DNA of 51,499 nt from contig JAUIDY010000031.1 in the NCBI GenBank assembly GCA_030428385.1, positions 1-51,499 on the forward strand. The letters are read 5' to 3'. The position numbers and the translations under genes are program-made. Of this stretch, positions 32,740 through 51,499 are shown piece by piece (position 1 is the stretch's first letter; the number at the start of each line of letters is the position of its first letter). The stretch is from Rhodothermia bacterium. Its GTDB lineage: Bacteria; Bacteroidota; Rhodothermia; Rhodothermales; JAAAOL01. The notes under the pieces were generated by a model that worked only from the letters and a program-made list of their open reading frames with translations, did no database searches and had not been told where the DNA came from.

Positions 32740-33260
32740 GCGGCGTGCTCGTGCTGCAGCCCATGTTTTTTGATGAGATGGGCGAGAAAACGCCGCGCCG
32801 TGCGATCCACGATGGTGTAGACTTCTTCAAAGCCTTCCGTGCCGCGTCCGTAGTACGGATCGGGCACTTCGAGGTCATCGGGCGTGGGGTCGAATGACCG
32901 AAAGAGGTGCACCTTCGAGAGCGTGGCATCGCGGTCGTCAAGCCGCCGCGTGGTGTCGTAGTTGCGCCGGTCCATCGCCAGGATATAGTCGAAATATTCG
33001 AGATCGTCGGCCTCAATCTGCCGCCCCCGCTGGTGGTCGATGGACACCCCGTGACGCTGCGCCGTTGCCCGCATGCGTTTGTCGGGGGGCTCGCCCACAT
33101 GCCAGCGGCCCGTGCCCGACGAGTCAATCTCGATACGATGCGACAAACCCGCTTCGTGAACCAACTGACGAAATACGCCTTCGGCGAGGGGGCTGCGGCA
33201 AATGTTTCCCAGACAGACAAACATCACCCGGATGGGACGGGGCGTTTTTCCTTCGGACAT
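32736..33260 (-). CDS. Low-molecular-weight protein tyrosine phosphatase
   Basis: A 174-residue phosphatase. The P-loop is VCLGNICRSPLAEG, giving CX5R with nucleophile Cys16 and Arg22; the catalytic acid loop VPDPYYGRGTEGFEEVYTIV is intact. It is longer at the N-terminus than the minimal LMW-PTP by some ten residues. It is coupled to the FN3K-like gene by a 4-nt overlap and divergent from xseA. The substrate could be a phosphotyrosine in capsule regulation, or the phospho-ketoamine product of its neighbour; the latter is inferred from gene pairing. Confidence 0.9.
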   Translation of the reverse strand: MSEGKTPRPIRVMFVCLGNICRSPLAEGVFRQLVHEAGLSHRIEIDSSGTGRWHVGEPPDKRMRATAQRHGVSIDHQRGRQIEADDLEYFDYILAMDRRNYDTTRRLDDRDATLSKVHLFRSFDPTPDDLEVPDPYYGRGTEGFEEVYTIVDRTARRFLAHLIKKHGLQHEHAA

Positions 33261-48522: not shown

Positions 48523-48777
48523 GTGGTTGGACTCTTTCAGACAGACGCCTATTACCCCAACTGCTACCGTTTAGGTTTCCACTGGAGAGCACCGAGCTAT
48601 CCTCGAACGCTGATTTCTGAAGCCTTCGAACAGATTCTTTACAACTTGGCGCTCGAACTTGACGTGACGGGTCCCGACGGGCTCGTGCTTCCGCTTCGCA
48701 GTCTGTTTGTGCACTCGTGGGCCATCGCATGGAGCGAGGGAACGCTACCTACAACTCCCGCACCCGAATATTTCTGA
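48523..48777 (+). CDS. Doubtful small ORF convergent with the DUF1080 lipoprotein
   Basis: An 84-codon frame starting at GTG, rich in Trp, Tyr, Phe and His (YYPNCYRLGFHWRAPSYPR, SLFVHSWAIAWSEG) with an AFEQILYNLALELD helix. Its 3' end overlaps the end of the convergent DUF1080 gene by 29 nt. There is no ribosome-binding site and no recognisable family, so it may be chance. It is listed because the region would otherwise be empty. Confidence 0.25.
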   Translation: MVGLFQTDAYYPNCYRLGFHWRAPSYPRTLISEAFEQILYNLALELDVTGPDGLVLPLRSLFVHSWAIAWSEGTLPTTPAPEYF

Positions 48778-49492
48778 ACCACACCGGATCGCCGTGGTCT
48801 TGAAGCGCGAGATGGCCTTCCGTGGCCAACCCGTAGTCGGGCCACTCGGTGAACTTGCTGTTTTGTACCCGCTCGTTCCAGTCGGCGCTGCCTAGTTCAT
48901 ACGCCACCACCTGCACCCCATTGAGCCAGTGCTCCACGTTCCGGTTGTTAACCACAATGCGGGTCTGGTTCCATTCGCCTGCTGGGTTTACAGCGCTGGA
49001 GTCGGACGGTGGGTGCAAGGCATAGTTGGCACCGGTGGTGCGGTCACGCCCGTTAGCGGCGTCGGGGTGGCAGCTATCATCCAGCACCTGAAATTCGGGG
49101 CCGGTATGGTAGGTGTTCGCGTACTGCTCGCTTTCTTGCACCAGGTAAAAGATGCCGCTGTTGCCACATTCGCTGATCTTCCATTCCAGCGAAAACTCGA
49201 AGTTGGCAAACATCTGCTTCGTGATGATGTCACCACCCGTGCCTTCGGCGTCGGGGTTGAAGAACAGCCCTTCTTCGTCTACCCCCCACTTGGCAGGCAG
49301 GCTATCGCTGCGGTATCCACGCCAGTTGGCTTCGAGGCTGGAGTAGGAGCCATCAAAAAGGGAAATCTCCATCGGTTCAGCAGGGACAGTTTCCGTCGGT
49401 GGTGTTGGTTCAACGGCGGTCTCTTCCTGCGGATTCGCACAAGCTGCCCAAACAAGCAGCGCGGCAAGCATAAAAAAGTGGGAGCGTTTCAT
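48749..49492 (-). CDS. DUF1080 (3-keto-disaccharide hydrolase-like) lipoprotein
   Basis: A 247-residue protein. The signal MKRSHFFMLAALLVWAAC has a lipobox (WAAC), so it is a lipoprotein, followed by a Pro/Glu/Thr linker and ISLFDGSYSSLEANWRGY. DUF1080 marks include FEFSLEWKISECGNSGIFYLV, YHTGPEFQVLDD, ANGRDRTTGANY and WNQTRIVVNNRNVEHWLNG, and it ends FRNIRVREL. Relatives act on keto-sugar substrates or simply bind carbohydrate; no catalytic claim is made. It shares orientation with the antiporters and the orphan gene at 49552. Confidence 0.88.
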   Translation of the reverse strand: MKRSHFFMLAALLVWAACANPQEETAVEPTPPTETVPAEPMEISLFDGSYSSLEANWRGYRSDSLPAKWGVDEEGLFFNPDAEGTGGDIITKQMFANFEFSLEWKISECGNSGIFYLVQESEQYANTYHTGPEFQVLDDSCHPDAANGRDRTTGANYALHPPSDSSAVNPAGEWNQTRIVVNNRNVEHWLNGVQVVAYELGSADWNERVQNSKFTEWPDYGLATEGHLALQDHGDPVWFRNIRVREL

Positions 49493-49551: not shown

Positions 49552-50280
49552 CTACGCCATCCCCTGTGGCGAAGACAAATACCGCATCAGCTTGCGTTTG
49601 GCCACGGGCAACGTGGTGGCCTCGAAGGGAAAGTCCAACTCGGTCGCGGCGAAGTACGTCGCCGGGTTCGGCAATTCCGGGATCTCGTTTACTAGTTCCA
49701 TTTTGATGCTCCGGGGCGACGGATACACATTCCTTCGGGAGACGCTGCGCACATAGGTCGTCCGGAGGCTACGGTACCGCTCGTCGGCGCGCGTAAAAAC
49801 GGAAAGTGAGTACTGCAATACATGCAGTTGGCTCGTCATACGATCCGGCACAATCAGATAGCCTTCTTCCACATACGAAGGCACAATCCCTACTTCTTCC
49901 AGGTGTAGGTTGTCGTCCACAAATTCAAAGATGGTGCGTCCTTCCTCGATGGCGTCTTGTACGAGCGGCAATGCCCACCGAATCAACTCTTCGAGCGTGT
50001 TCATCAGGTCGTCGCCCCATTGGGGTTGCTGCCGGATGAGTTGGGCGGTATTCCAATCAATGCCCTCGATGCTTCCGGGCGCGGCCTGATGGATCTGGTC
50101 GAGGTTGTCTACCATTTGCCGAAGGGTGCCAAAGAGTTGGATCAGGTCCGACAAAAACGGATACACGATGTTACGTGAAAACGCCTGCCGAACGTCCTGC
50201 AAACGCGCCAACACCTGATACTGGGCACGCTCCAGATCGTCCCCCGCACAGATGAAGTGTTCGATCCGTAATCCGTCCAT
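49552..50280 (-). CDS. Protein of unknown function behind a strong palindromic promoter
   Basis: A 242-residue soluble protein of unknown function. The start is ATG 50280, supported by GGGGAG six to eight nt upstream and by a promoter that would be inside the gene if a start at 50340 were used. The N-terminal 150 residues are mostly helical (DDLERAQYQVLARLQDVRQAF, SDLIQLFGTLRQMVDNLDQI, TLEELIRWALPLVQDAIEEG). The C-terminal part is strand-like (KMELVNEIPELPNPATYFAATELDFPFEATTLPVAKRK). There is no signal, membrane helix or known motif. The IS element lies upstream of its promoter. Confidence 0.7.
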   Translation of the reverse strand: MDGLRIEHFICAGDDLERAQYQVLARLQDVRQAFSRNIVYPFLSDLIQLFGTLRQMVDNLDQIHQAAPGSIEGIDWNTAQLIRQQPQWGDDLMNTLEELIRWALPLVQDAIEEGRTIFEFVDDNLHLEEVGIVPSYVEEGYLIVPDRMTSQLHVLQYSLSVFTRADERYRSLRTTYVRSVSRRNVYPSPRSIKMELVNEIPELPNPATYFAATELDFPFEATTLPVAKRKLMRYLSSPQGMA

Positions 50281-50317
50281 CAATCTCCCCTCAGTTTGTG
50301 AAGATAACGTGATGACA

Positions 50318-50330
50318 CCTATAGTATAGG
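50318..50330. promoter_or_regulatory. Palindrome over the -10 box, candidate operator
   Basis: CCTATA-g-TATAGG, perfect 6-bp arms around one central base, covering the -10 hexamer of the promoter of the 49552-50280 gene. A repressor bound here would block the promoter; no regulator gene is adjacent. Confidence 0.45.
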
Positions 50331-50351
50331 GTCTCGGCACTAAAGGGTCAA
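50323..50351 (-). promoter_or_regulatory. Canonical -35/-10 promoter of the orphan gene
   Basis: On the minus strand TTGACC (50346-50351), a 17-nt spacer and TATACT (50323-50328). Transcription would start about 36 nt before the ATG at 50280. Confidence 0.7.
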
Positions 50352-50466
50352 TGGATAAGCAGATGGTTCAATTTCTACAATACCCTTTTTTTCTTAATAT
50401 AACACGTATTTATTCCTATTATTTTTAGTCAATTATCACTTATTACAGAATAATAATATATTATCG
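50352..50466. other. AT-rich strip next to the insertion sequence
   Basis: Long T and A/T runs (cccttttttttctt, attatttttagtc, aataataatatatta), in sharp contrast to the GC-rich rest of the window. No gene is visible. It may be the IS target region or acquired DNA. Confidence 0.5.
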
Positions 50467-50472
50467 CTATTA

Positions 50473-50490
50473 ATGCGAATTAAGAGTTGA
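50473..50490 (+). repeat. Left terminal inverted repeat of the IS
   Basis: atgcgaattaagagttga pairs as an inverted copy of 51456-51473 (15 of 18). The transposase stop codon (50480-50482) lies within it. Confidence 0.7.
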
Positions 50491-51382
50491 AGGTGAGCAA
50501 GAGCATGGCAGCAGCGAGGCGACCGAAGACATGCACGAGCAACCCCCGATAGGAACGTACCTTCGAGGCGCACTGAATACCCGTCTTCTCATTGATCCAA
50601 CTGAAGAGCGACTCTATGGGCTGGCGCACTCGACTGACCGCCTCAGACCATAGCTGCTGTGCTGCCGACAAGTACGGCTGTCCCCTTTTCTTTTTGGCAG
50701 GCGTCAACATCTCGAGATCTTGCTCTCGGGCAAGACGTGCTTGCATGGGGCCATCGGCGTAGGCCTTGTCCCCATAAAGCTGCCCCCCTTTGAGGCGAGG
50801 CAACACCTGACGGAGCGCCATCAAGTCATTTTCGCTGCCCGACGTCAGCCCAATCCATGCAGGAACAGGCATCGCTGCACGTCGTCGCTGGCCGATAATG
50901 TGCAACTTCACGCCGTAGAAAAAGCTCTGCTTCGAGGCACAGTAGCCCTTGTCAGCCAGTTCAGGGGCCACTTTGGCGTGGGACGAACGCTTTTCATGGG
51001 CCACGATGATGGGCATGGAATCGACCAGGCCTACACACCGGGACGCTTCCTTGCGAGGCACCCTCACCAAGGCCTCTGCGATCAGCGGGGCGAAGAGGGC
51101 ACTAAGCCGGTTGAGTCGCTGGATGTAACCACCGTAGGAAGGCATTTCAGGAAACCAGTCGGCTAGATGATCGCCTGTGTAGTCGTAGATCTCGCGGATC
51201 GTACGTCGTTTTTGGATGATGCCGAAGAGGTAGATCGTGAGCACTTCTTGGTCGGTGAATCGGGGCTGGTGGTTGTTGCTCAGGCGCTGAGCGAGGGTCC
51301 AGAGTTGTTGCCGATAGCAGGTGCAGACGAACAGGTAAATACGAATGAGCGTAAGTTGCCAAGCCAGAGATGGCGTTTCCAT
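50480..51382 (-). CDS. DDE transposase, IS982-like
   Basis: A 300-residue transposase with a complete catalytic triad: Asp121 in GLVDSMPII, Asp205 in LYGDKAYAD and Glu257 in RVRQPIESLFSW. The middle KGYCASKQSFFYGVKLH resembles IS982-type enzymes; an IS5/ISL2-like origin is possible. The N-terminus (YRQQLWTLAQRLSNNHQPRFTDQEVLTIYLFGIIQKRRTI) is a helical DNA-binding part. The frame is intact with no frameshift, so the element may be active. The start codon lies inside the long hairpin at 51379-51450 and the stop inside the left end repeat. Confidence 0.85.
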   Translation of the reverse strand: METPSLAWQLTLIRIYLFVCTCYRQQLWTLAQRLSNNHQPRFTDQEVLTIYLFGIIQKRRTIREIYDYTGDHLADWFPEMPSYGGYIQRLNRLSALFAPLIAEALVRVPRKEASRCVGLVDSMPIIVAHEKRSSHAKVAPELADKGYCASKQSFFYGVKLHIIGQRRRAAMPVPAWIGLTSGSENDLMALRQVLPRLKGGQLYGDKAYADGPMQARLAREQDLEMLTPAKKKRGQPYLSAAQQLWSEAVSRVRQPIESLFSWINEKTGIQCASKVRSYRGLLVHVFGRLAAAMLLLTFNS

Positions 51383-51450
51383 GTTGCCAAGGGCGGTTTG
51401 TGTAAGAATGTGTTGGTAGCACCTTCTTCAAACCGTCTGCGGCAACATGG
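51379..51450 (-). promoter_or_regulatory. Long fold-back hairpin covering the transposase start codon
   Basis: Arms pair in three blocks: ccatgttgcc (51379-51388) with ggcaacatgg (51441-51450), cggtttg (51394-51400) with caaaccg (51429-51435), and aagaatgtg (51404-51412) with caccttctt (51420-51428, one mismatch); 25 of 26 positions pair, with a 7-nt loop. The ATG (51382-51380) is in the 3' arm of the transcript. Confidence 0.75.
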
Positions 51451-51455
51451 TTTTT

Positions 51456-51473
51456 CCAACCCTTAATTGGCAT
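51456..51473 (-). repeat. Right terminal inverted repeat of the IS
   Basis: ccaacccttaattggcat is the inverted partner of 50473-50490. With outer bases included the match runs to 51479. Confidence 0.7.
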
Positions 51474-51499
51474 TGTTAGAAGTGAAGAAGCCCCGGACG

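Follow-up and report, generated by a model that had tools for sequence, protein, structure and literature searches.

A covarying hairpin over the transposase start codon of IS982-family insertion sequences, a probable IS10-type riboregulatory module

Riboregulation of transposases has been worked out in detail for only a few insertion sequences, namely IS10, IS50, IS200, IS30, and ISPpu9. In IS50/Tn5 it takes the form of read-through fold-back, in which a structure hides the translation start in transcripts that come from outside. The RNA-OUT of IS10 is 69 nt long and complementary over its first 35 nt to the initiation region, and the promoter mutations R5 and HH104 destabilise it (PMC5006887). 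IS200 and IS30 have antisense RNAs that repress the translation or the mRNA of their transposases (as cited in PMC8450116). Among the members of the IS982 family are elements that activate resistance genes in Acinetobacter and Bacteroides (PMC7335449). A mechanism of this known kind is apparently undescribed for the family: a text search of the family review (PMC7335449) returned nothing on a hairpin at the transposase start, and our search, which was limited to open-licence papers and so does not prove novelty, found no description of antisense RNA in IS982 and no transcript data for any IS982 element. Papers on small RNAs of Enterococcus, Lactococcus, and Bacteroides contain nothing on IS982 in their main text. 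A study of Pyrococcus furiosus reports, with IS families pooled, a clustering of antisense starts at the starts of transposase genes, and IS982 makes up 5 of the 24 insertion sequences of the type strain by one count (PMC6640164). Wolbachia has antisense starts at several transposases, the family of which is not stated (PMC12558409).

The window, by which we mean the whole 51,499-nt stretch of Rhodothermia DNA that was analysed, carries the following insertion sequence:

50473 to 51473, minus strand: complete IS982-family insertion sequence of about 1001 bp, its ends set at the points where its other copies in the genome cease to match
51473 to 51457 (ATGCCAATTAAGGGTTG) and 50473 to 50489 (ATGCGAATTAAGAGTTG): imperfect terminal inverted repeats of 17 bp, 15/17 identical
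50480 to 51382, minus strand: IS982-family transposase gene (tnp), 300 amino acids, with its ATG at 51382-51380

The transposase scores 140.8 bits against the NF033520 equivalog model (cut-off 130), which makes it an IS982-type DDE transposase, and the start position of the gene agrees with the N-termini of relatives. The element also has the length (about 1 kb), the terminal inverted repeats (11–32 bp), and the single gene of the family. The family review gives conserved 5'-AC ends for the repeats (PMC7335449), whereas the window element ends in ATGC... (AATGC with the A before it), and Bacteroidota relatives have AATGCGAAT-type ends that begin AATGC. Our IS982 placement therefore follows from a transposase score above the curated cut-off, although the terminal signature differs. 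At least four left ends and at least five right ends of the element are present in the same draft genome, nearly all of the copies being broken by contig ends. The genome therefore holds at least five copies, a setting in which multicopy control would matter; a close relative is found on a Salinibacter ruber plasmid. The last 28 bases of the contig (51472–51499), from just inside the left IS end outward, are identical to positions 33218–33245 of contig C29 of the same genome, where the sequence runs on differently and takes in the second half of a hairpin resembling an intrinsic terminator. Collapse of the IS repeat may have made the window contig a chimera, in which case the two flanks of the element may not belong to one insertion. 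A 262-aa open reading frame with no Pfam match (49552–50340, minus strand) adjoins the element, and the gene at 48749–49492 (minus strand) encodes a protein with a 3-keto-disaccharide hydrolase domain (PF06439, E 7e-48). The same genome has IS5-family copies, one with an intact frame and one in pieces (G000:C96 and C184).

The first-pass annotation described a 72-nt rod with 25 of 26 positions paired at 51379–51450 and the transposase start codon in its outer arm; the structure reads off the sequence exactly in this form, and the ATG lies in the outer 3' arm. Its parts and surroundings are:

51379 to 51450: hairpin of 72 nt, which folds on either strand and better as antisense RNA (plus strand)
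51379 to 51388, minus strand: 3' arm of the outer stem in the tnp sense (GGCAACATGG), which holds the start codon, from the sequence
51441 to 51450, minus strand: 5' arm of the outer stem in the tnp sense (CCATGTTGCC), missing from any transcript that starts inside the hairpin
51394 to 51400, minus strand: 3' arm of the middle stem, CAAACCG, from the sequence and covarying in relatives
51429 to 51435, minus strand: 5' arm of the middle stem, CGGTTTG, from the sequence and covarying in relatives
51404 to 51428, plus strand: apical stem and 7-nt loop, with the UUGG motif in the antisense loop TTGGTAG
51451 to 51455, plus strand: TTTTT that immediately follows the hairpin in the antisense direction, a candidate intrinsic terminator of an antisense RNA
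51352 to 51357, plus strand: TAAGTT, the best candidate antisense -10 box, weak (3.2 bits), with a predicted start near 51364

Read on the minus strand (the tnp sense) from 51450 to 51379, the 5' side of the rod is composed of CCATGTTGCC (10), GCAGA (5), CGGTTTG (7), and AAGAAGGTG (9); the loop CTACCAA (7) follows, and the 3' side is composed of CACATTCTT (9, with one G.A mismatch), ACA (3), CAAACCG (7), CCCTT (5), and GGCAACATGG (10). The folding energy of 51370–51460, which had been proposed as a check, is -35.8 kcal/mol for the minus strand in RNAfold (z -5.5), and none of 200 shuffles equals it. RNA of the plus strand, which is antisense to tnp, is the more stable of the two (-44.1 kcal/mol, z -6.4). 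A covariance model (R1), derived from the antisense strand of an alignment to which the window contributes, finds 51379–51450 with 91 bits on the plus strand and 28 bits on the minus strand. An Rfam search of 50300–51499 returned no family up to E = 1, and a simple terminator scan found no terminator, a rod with internal loops being outside the rules of the scan. A 108-aa frame (51147–51473, minus strand; MPIKGWKNH...) begins at the ATG of the IS tip and crosses the hairpin in another frame. We rejected it as a leader peptide: it starts at the IS end and a TGA closes it in the nearest relative (L011), so the frame is not conserved, and the overlap is probably due to chance.

Relatives were drawn from the same order, from 84,980 species genomes, from plasmids (including the named members IS982B, ISEfm1, ISAba9, ISRa1, and ISLgar3), and from samples of Bacteroidota, Pseudomonadota, and Bacillota. 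The start was taken as the ATG nearest the position expected from the profile, with folding ignored, and nine loci without a credible start were left out, which gave a final set of 60 non-redundant IS982-family elements from many phyla, many of them only ~24% identical in protein. Each start was scored for complementarity of positions -85 to -15 to positions -14 to +20, relative to dinucleotide shuffles. The mean duplex z is -2.9 for the 60 IS982-family starts, with 67% below -2, compared with a mean of +0.14 and 4% below -2 for 150 other gene starts from the same loci, and with 1.7% below -2 for 120 positions inside the same transposase genes. The corresponding Mann–Whitney p values (8e-19 and 3e-19) overstate independence because the elements are related, yet the arm sequences are not alignable between subgroups. 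IS5-type starts (1 of 13 below z -2) are as a group without a start-codon hairpin. Of the relatives inspected by eye, most have a long hairpin of unrelated sequence whose 3' arm contains or adjoins the start codon. In the window ~7 nt separate the terminal repeat from the 5' arm, and in Flavobacterium copies ~60 nt, whereas the arm keeps its place on the start codon; this variable gap with a fixed start-codon position supports a constraint tied to expression of the gene and not to the end of the transposon.

The hairpin is weak or absent in about one-third of the elements, perhaps through loss or replacement within the family. Among these hairpin-poor relatives (L074, L078, L054, L055, L088, L108, and L119, for example) are two elements of Clostridium MAGs and several Saprospiraceae/Acidobacteria-type elements with short N-termini. 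Viral contigs yielded no relatives of the window transposase, only near-identical copies of ISEfm1 and ISRa1. When the hairpin was searched for away from transposase genes in 60 relatives, the strong matches (E < 1e-18) adjoined IS982 genes or remnants. Two weak covariance-model matches (E about 0.001-0.002) were L248 (G013:C1:637370-637462), near a degenerate IS982 remnant, and L247 (G023:C1:2523696-2523789).

Failure of the arms to be conserved or to covary in related copies had been named in advance as grounds for abandoning the proposal; in relatives, however, the arms keep their position and covary, with some silent codon changes answered by matching changes in the 5' arm, and the feature occurs in most of the IS982 family. 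For the nine sequences and 27 pairs of the Rhodothermia group, 88.7% of cells are paired, compared with 30–53% when the partner is slid by 1–3 columns, the covariation score is above that of 500 of 500 shuffles, and five pairs have changed on both sides. Across three subgroups, 746 of 873 cells are Watson–Crick and 25 of 78 pair columns include at least two Watson–Crick types. The stem of the Flavobacterium copies spans codons 1–5, and the codon changes there are matched upstream (AGTCTGAT..ATCAGACT, AAGCTGAT..ATCAGCTT).

It had been claimed that a transcript from outside would hide the start and that one starting within the hairpin, lacking the 5' arm, would free it. This is supported in silico for assumed start points: opening positions -12 to +8 in the window costs 22.2 kcal/mol for a transcript from -100 and 7.6–7.8 kcal/mol for starts at -52 to -30. 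This contrast (~22 versus ~8 kcal/mol) means that the fold-back logic holds computationally, and the modelled difference is what fold-back control requires. Median opening costs for outside and internal starts are 12.3 and 5.9 in the IS982 family, and 7.2 and 6.2 in ordinary genes; the internal-start cost is no different between the two sets (p 0.24), whereas the outside–internal difference does differ (p 5e-15). Good candidate sense promoters, starting between the arms, are predicted in ISEfm1 (TTGGTA-18-TATAGT), IS982B (TTGGAA-16-TATCCT), and ISAba9 (TTGAAA-17-TATTTT), but over all 60 elements such promoters are not significantly enriched (z about 1). Only one Bacteroidota subgroup, with 14 members, shows an enrichment of sense promoters near -20 (z 3.7), a peak consistent with the usual 23-nt leader of Bacteroides thetaiotaomicron (PMC7366714). 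In the window, where the sense and antisense promoters are both only weak matches, the TTTG of CGGTTTG is a possible, weak Bacteroidota-type -7 element. Many IS982 members are without a clear Shine-Dalgarno sequence.

Several features belong to the opposite strand. The antisense fold is more stable than the sense fold in 43 of 60 elements (excess over shuffles z 2.9), including 8 of 9 in the Rhodothermia group. A.C mismatches outnumber G.T mismatches 39 to 12, with p = 0.058 after correction for base composition; our first test of this bias (p 2e-4) was too optimistic. T frequencies at +1 to +4 after the antisense stem are 0.70, 0.51, 0.65, and 0.60 compared with about 0.40, and at least five T in eight positions occur in 18 of 43 hairpins, at 9 of 43 control positions, and at 2 of 43 on the sense side (p 0.0026); a TTT after the stem is invariant in 9 of 9 Rhodothermia-group members. 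Among 38 antisense apices, TTGG and TGGT occur in 14 each, with means of 3.5 and 2.5 and maxima of 9 and 7 in 300 shuffles. UUGG conforms to the YUNR U-turn found in the loops of antisense RNAs. For antisense promoters there is no enrichment over synonymous-codon shuffles (z at most 1.35). Judged by stability, U-tract, and loop motif, the antisense strand is at least as likely as the sense strand to be the selected RNA.

We consider it rather probable that the hairpin is an IS10-type start-codon riboregulatory module common to most of the IS982 family, in which one DNA palindrome would serve two jobs, fold-back and antisense. In fold-back, an mRNA from a neighbouring host promoter would have both arms, fold, and bury the transposase start, and an mRNA from the promoter of the element, starting between the arms and thus without the 5' arm, would be translatable. 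In the antisense part, the opposite strand would be transcribed outward from the first tnp codons to give a short hairpin RNA ending at the U-tract; through its UUGG-type loop this RNA would bind the native tnp mRNA at its 5' end and block the start, more strongly as copies accumulate. What the analysis shows is the hairpin, its family-wide conservation and covariation, its constant place over the start codon, and the computed accessibility switch. Fold-back is well supported in silico and the predicted antisense RNA is likely; we infer that both RNAs exist, with starts as proposed, and that they lower translation and transposition. We are evenly divided on the more specific proposal that most of IS982, across phyla, has, over the tnp start, an antisense hairpin RNA resembling RNA-OUT, with UUGG/UGGU conserved in its recognition loop and its sequence rewritten many times by compensatory evolution with the geometry kept. 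The first-pass annotation likened the rod to the fold-back of IS10/IS50; the core logic is supported in silico, but the internal promoter, convincing in single relatives, is a weak match in the window and shows no enrichment over the whole set. That reading overlooked the antisense strand, and the whole resembles IS10 RNA-IN/RNA-OUT more than simple fold-back by itself.

The palindrome could instead act in the sense mRNA only, silencing transcripts from outside with nothing made from the other strand. The accessibility switch, the fixed start-codon position with covariation, and the internal starts that several classical members are predicted to have between their arms all suit this account, but the U-tract and UUGG loop sit on the antisense strand, and mismatches are more often A.C, which is G.U on the other strand, than G.T. 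In 6 of 9 Rhodothermia-group members, moreover, the outer-stem start-codon position (columns 18/85) is unpaired in the sense RNA, mostly as A.C that would be wobble-paired in the antisense RNA, and we regard this account as unlikely. Those same antisense features include a U-tract directly after the stem, as expected if the hairpin were nothing but an intrinsic terminator of transcripts antisense to tnp that served, at the left end, to stop outward or opposing transcription. A terminator has no need for a 25-bp rod, a conserved apex, or centring on the start codon; with the loop motif conserved and just 18 of 43 hairpins having at least five T in eight, we find this explanation very improbable.

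A role at the DNA level, as a palindromic operator or a subterminal transposase-binding site, is suggested by an inverted repeat near the left end and by the N-terminal helix-turn-helix predicted in IS982 transposases (PMC7335449). However, the palindrome tracks the start codon and not the IS end, has asymmetric bulges and internal loops, tolerates wobble-type departures, keeps its pairing while its sequence is wholly different between members, and has no copy at the right end, so a DNA element is very doubtful indeed. Least probable of all is an activating 5'-UTR structure, which an antisense RNA would open to stimulate translation: ISPpu9 demonstrates that an antisense RNA and a 5'-UTR structure can activate (PMC8450116), but its 5'-UTR is 244 nt, and IS982 elements with predicted promoters would start their native mRNA inside the hairpin, where no opening is needed.

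Returning to the proposed two-job module, IS10 is its closest likeness, with a palindrome over the transposase start, a long bulged stem, and an antisense strand that folds better than the sense strand. As a positive control under the same measures, IS10 gives z -2.4 and folds of -26.0 (antisense) and -19.6 (sense) with the same geometry. The native promoter of IS10 lies within the arm that pairs with the start region, and the same is predicted in ISEfm1, IS982B, and ISAba9. Unlike IS10, which belongs to the IS4 family, IS982 elements have an unrelated transposase and a different sequence, frequently show a UUGG-type apex and, behind the stem, a U-tract, and in many members have no clear Shine-Dalgarno sequence; their antisense RNA is a predicted one. 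IS982 differs from IS50/Tn5 in having antisense-strand features as well, and its fold-back is likewise a predicted one. IS200 and IS30 belong to different families and are likened to IS982 by their antisense control. In ISPpu9 (Asr9/Ssr9), as predicted in IS982, the transposase initiation region lies in secondary structure with an antisense RNA opposite (PMC8450116), but ISPpu9 has a 244-nt 5'-UTR and an activating antisense RNA, whereas a short leader and inhibition are predicted for IS982.

The comparative evidence points to a start-codon hairpin under selection in most of a widespread family, and opens to test the question of whether such control is a general need of IS families. For structure–function work the family offers a ready set of natural variants that carry compensatory changes, and antisense RNAs are predicted in strains where start-site maps can be made. 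Given that most of the relatives compared have the same arrangement in different letters, the IS982 family probably restrains itself as IS10 does.
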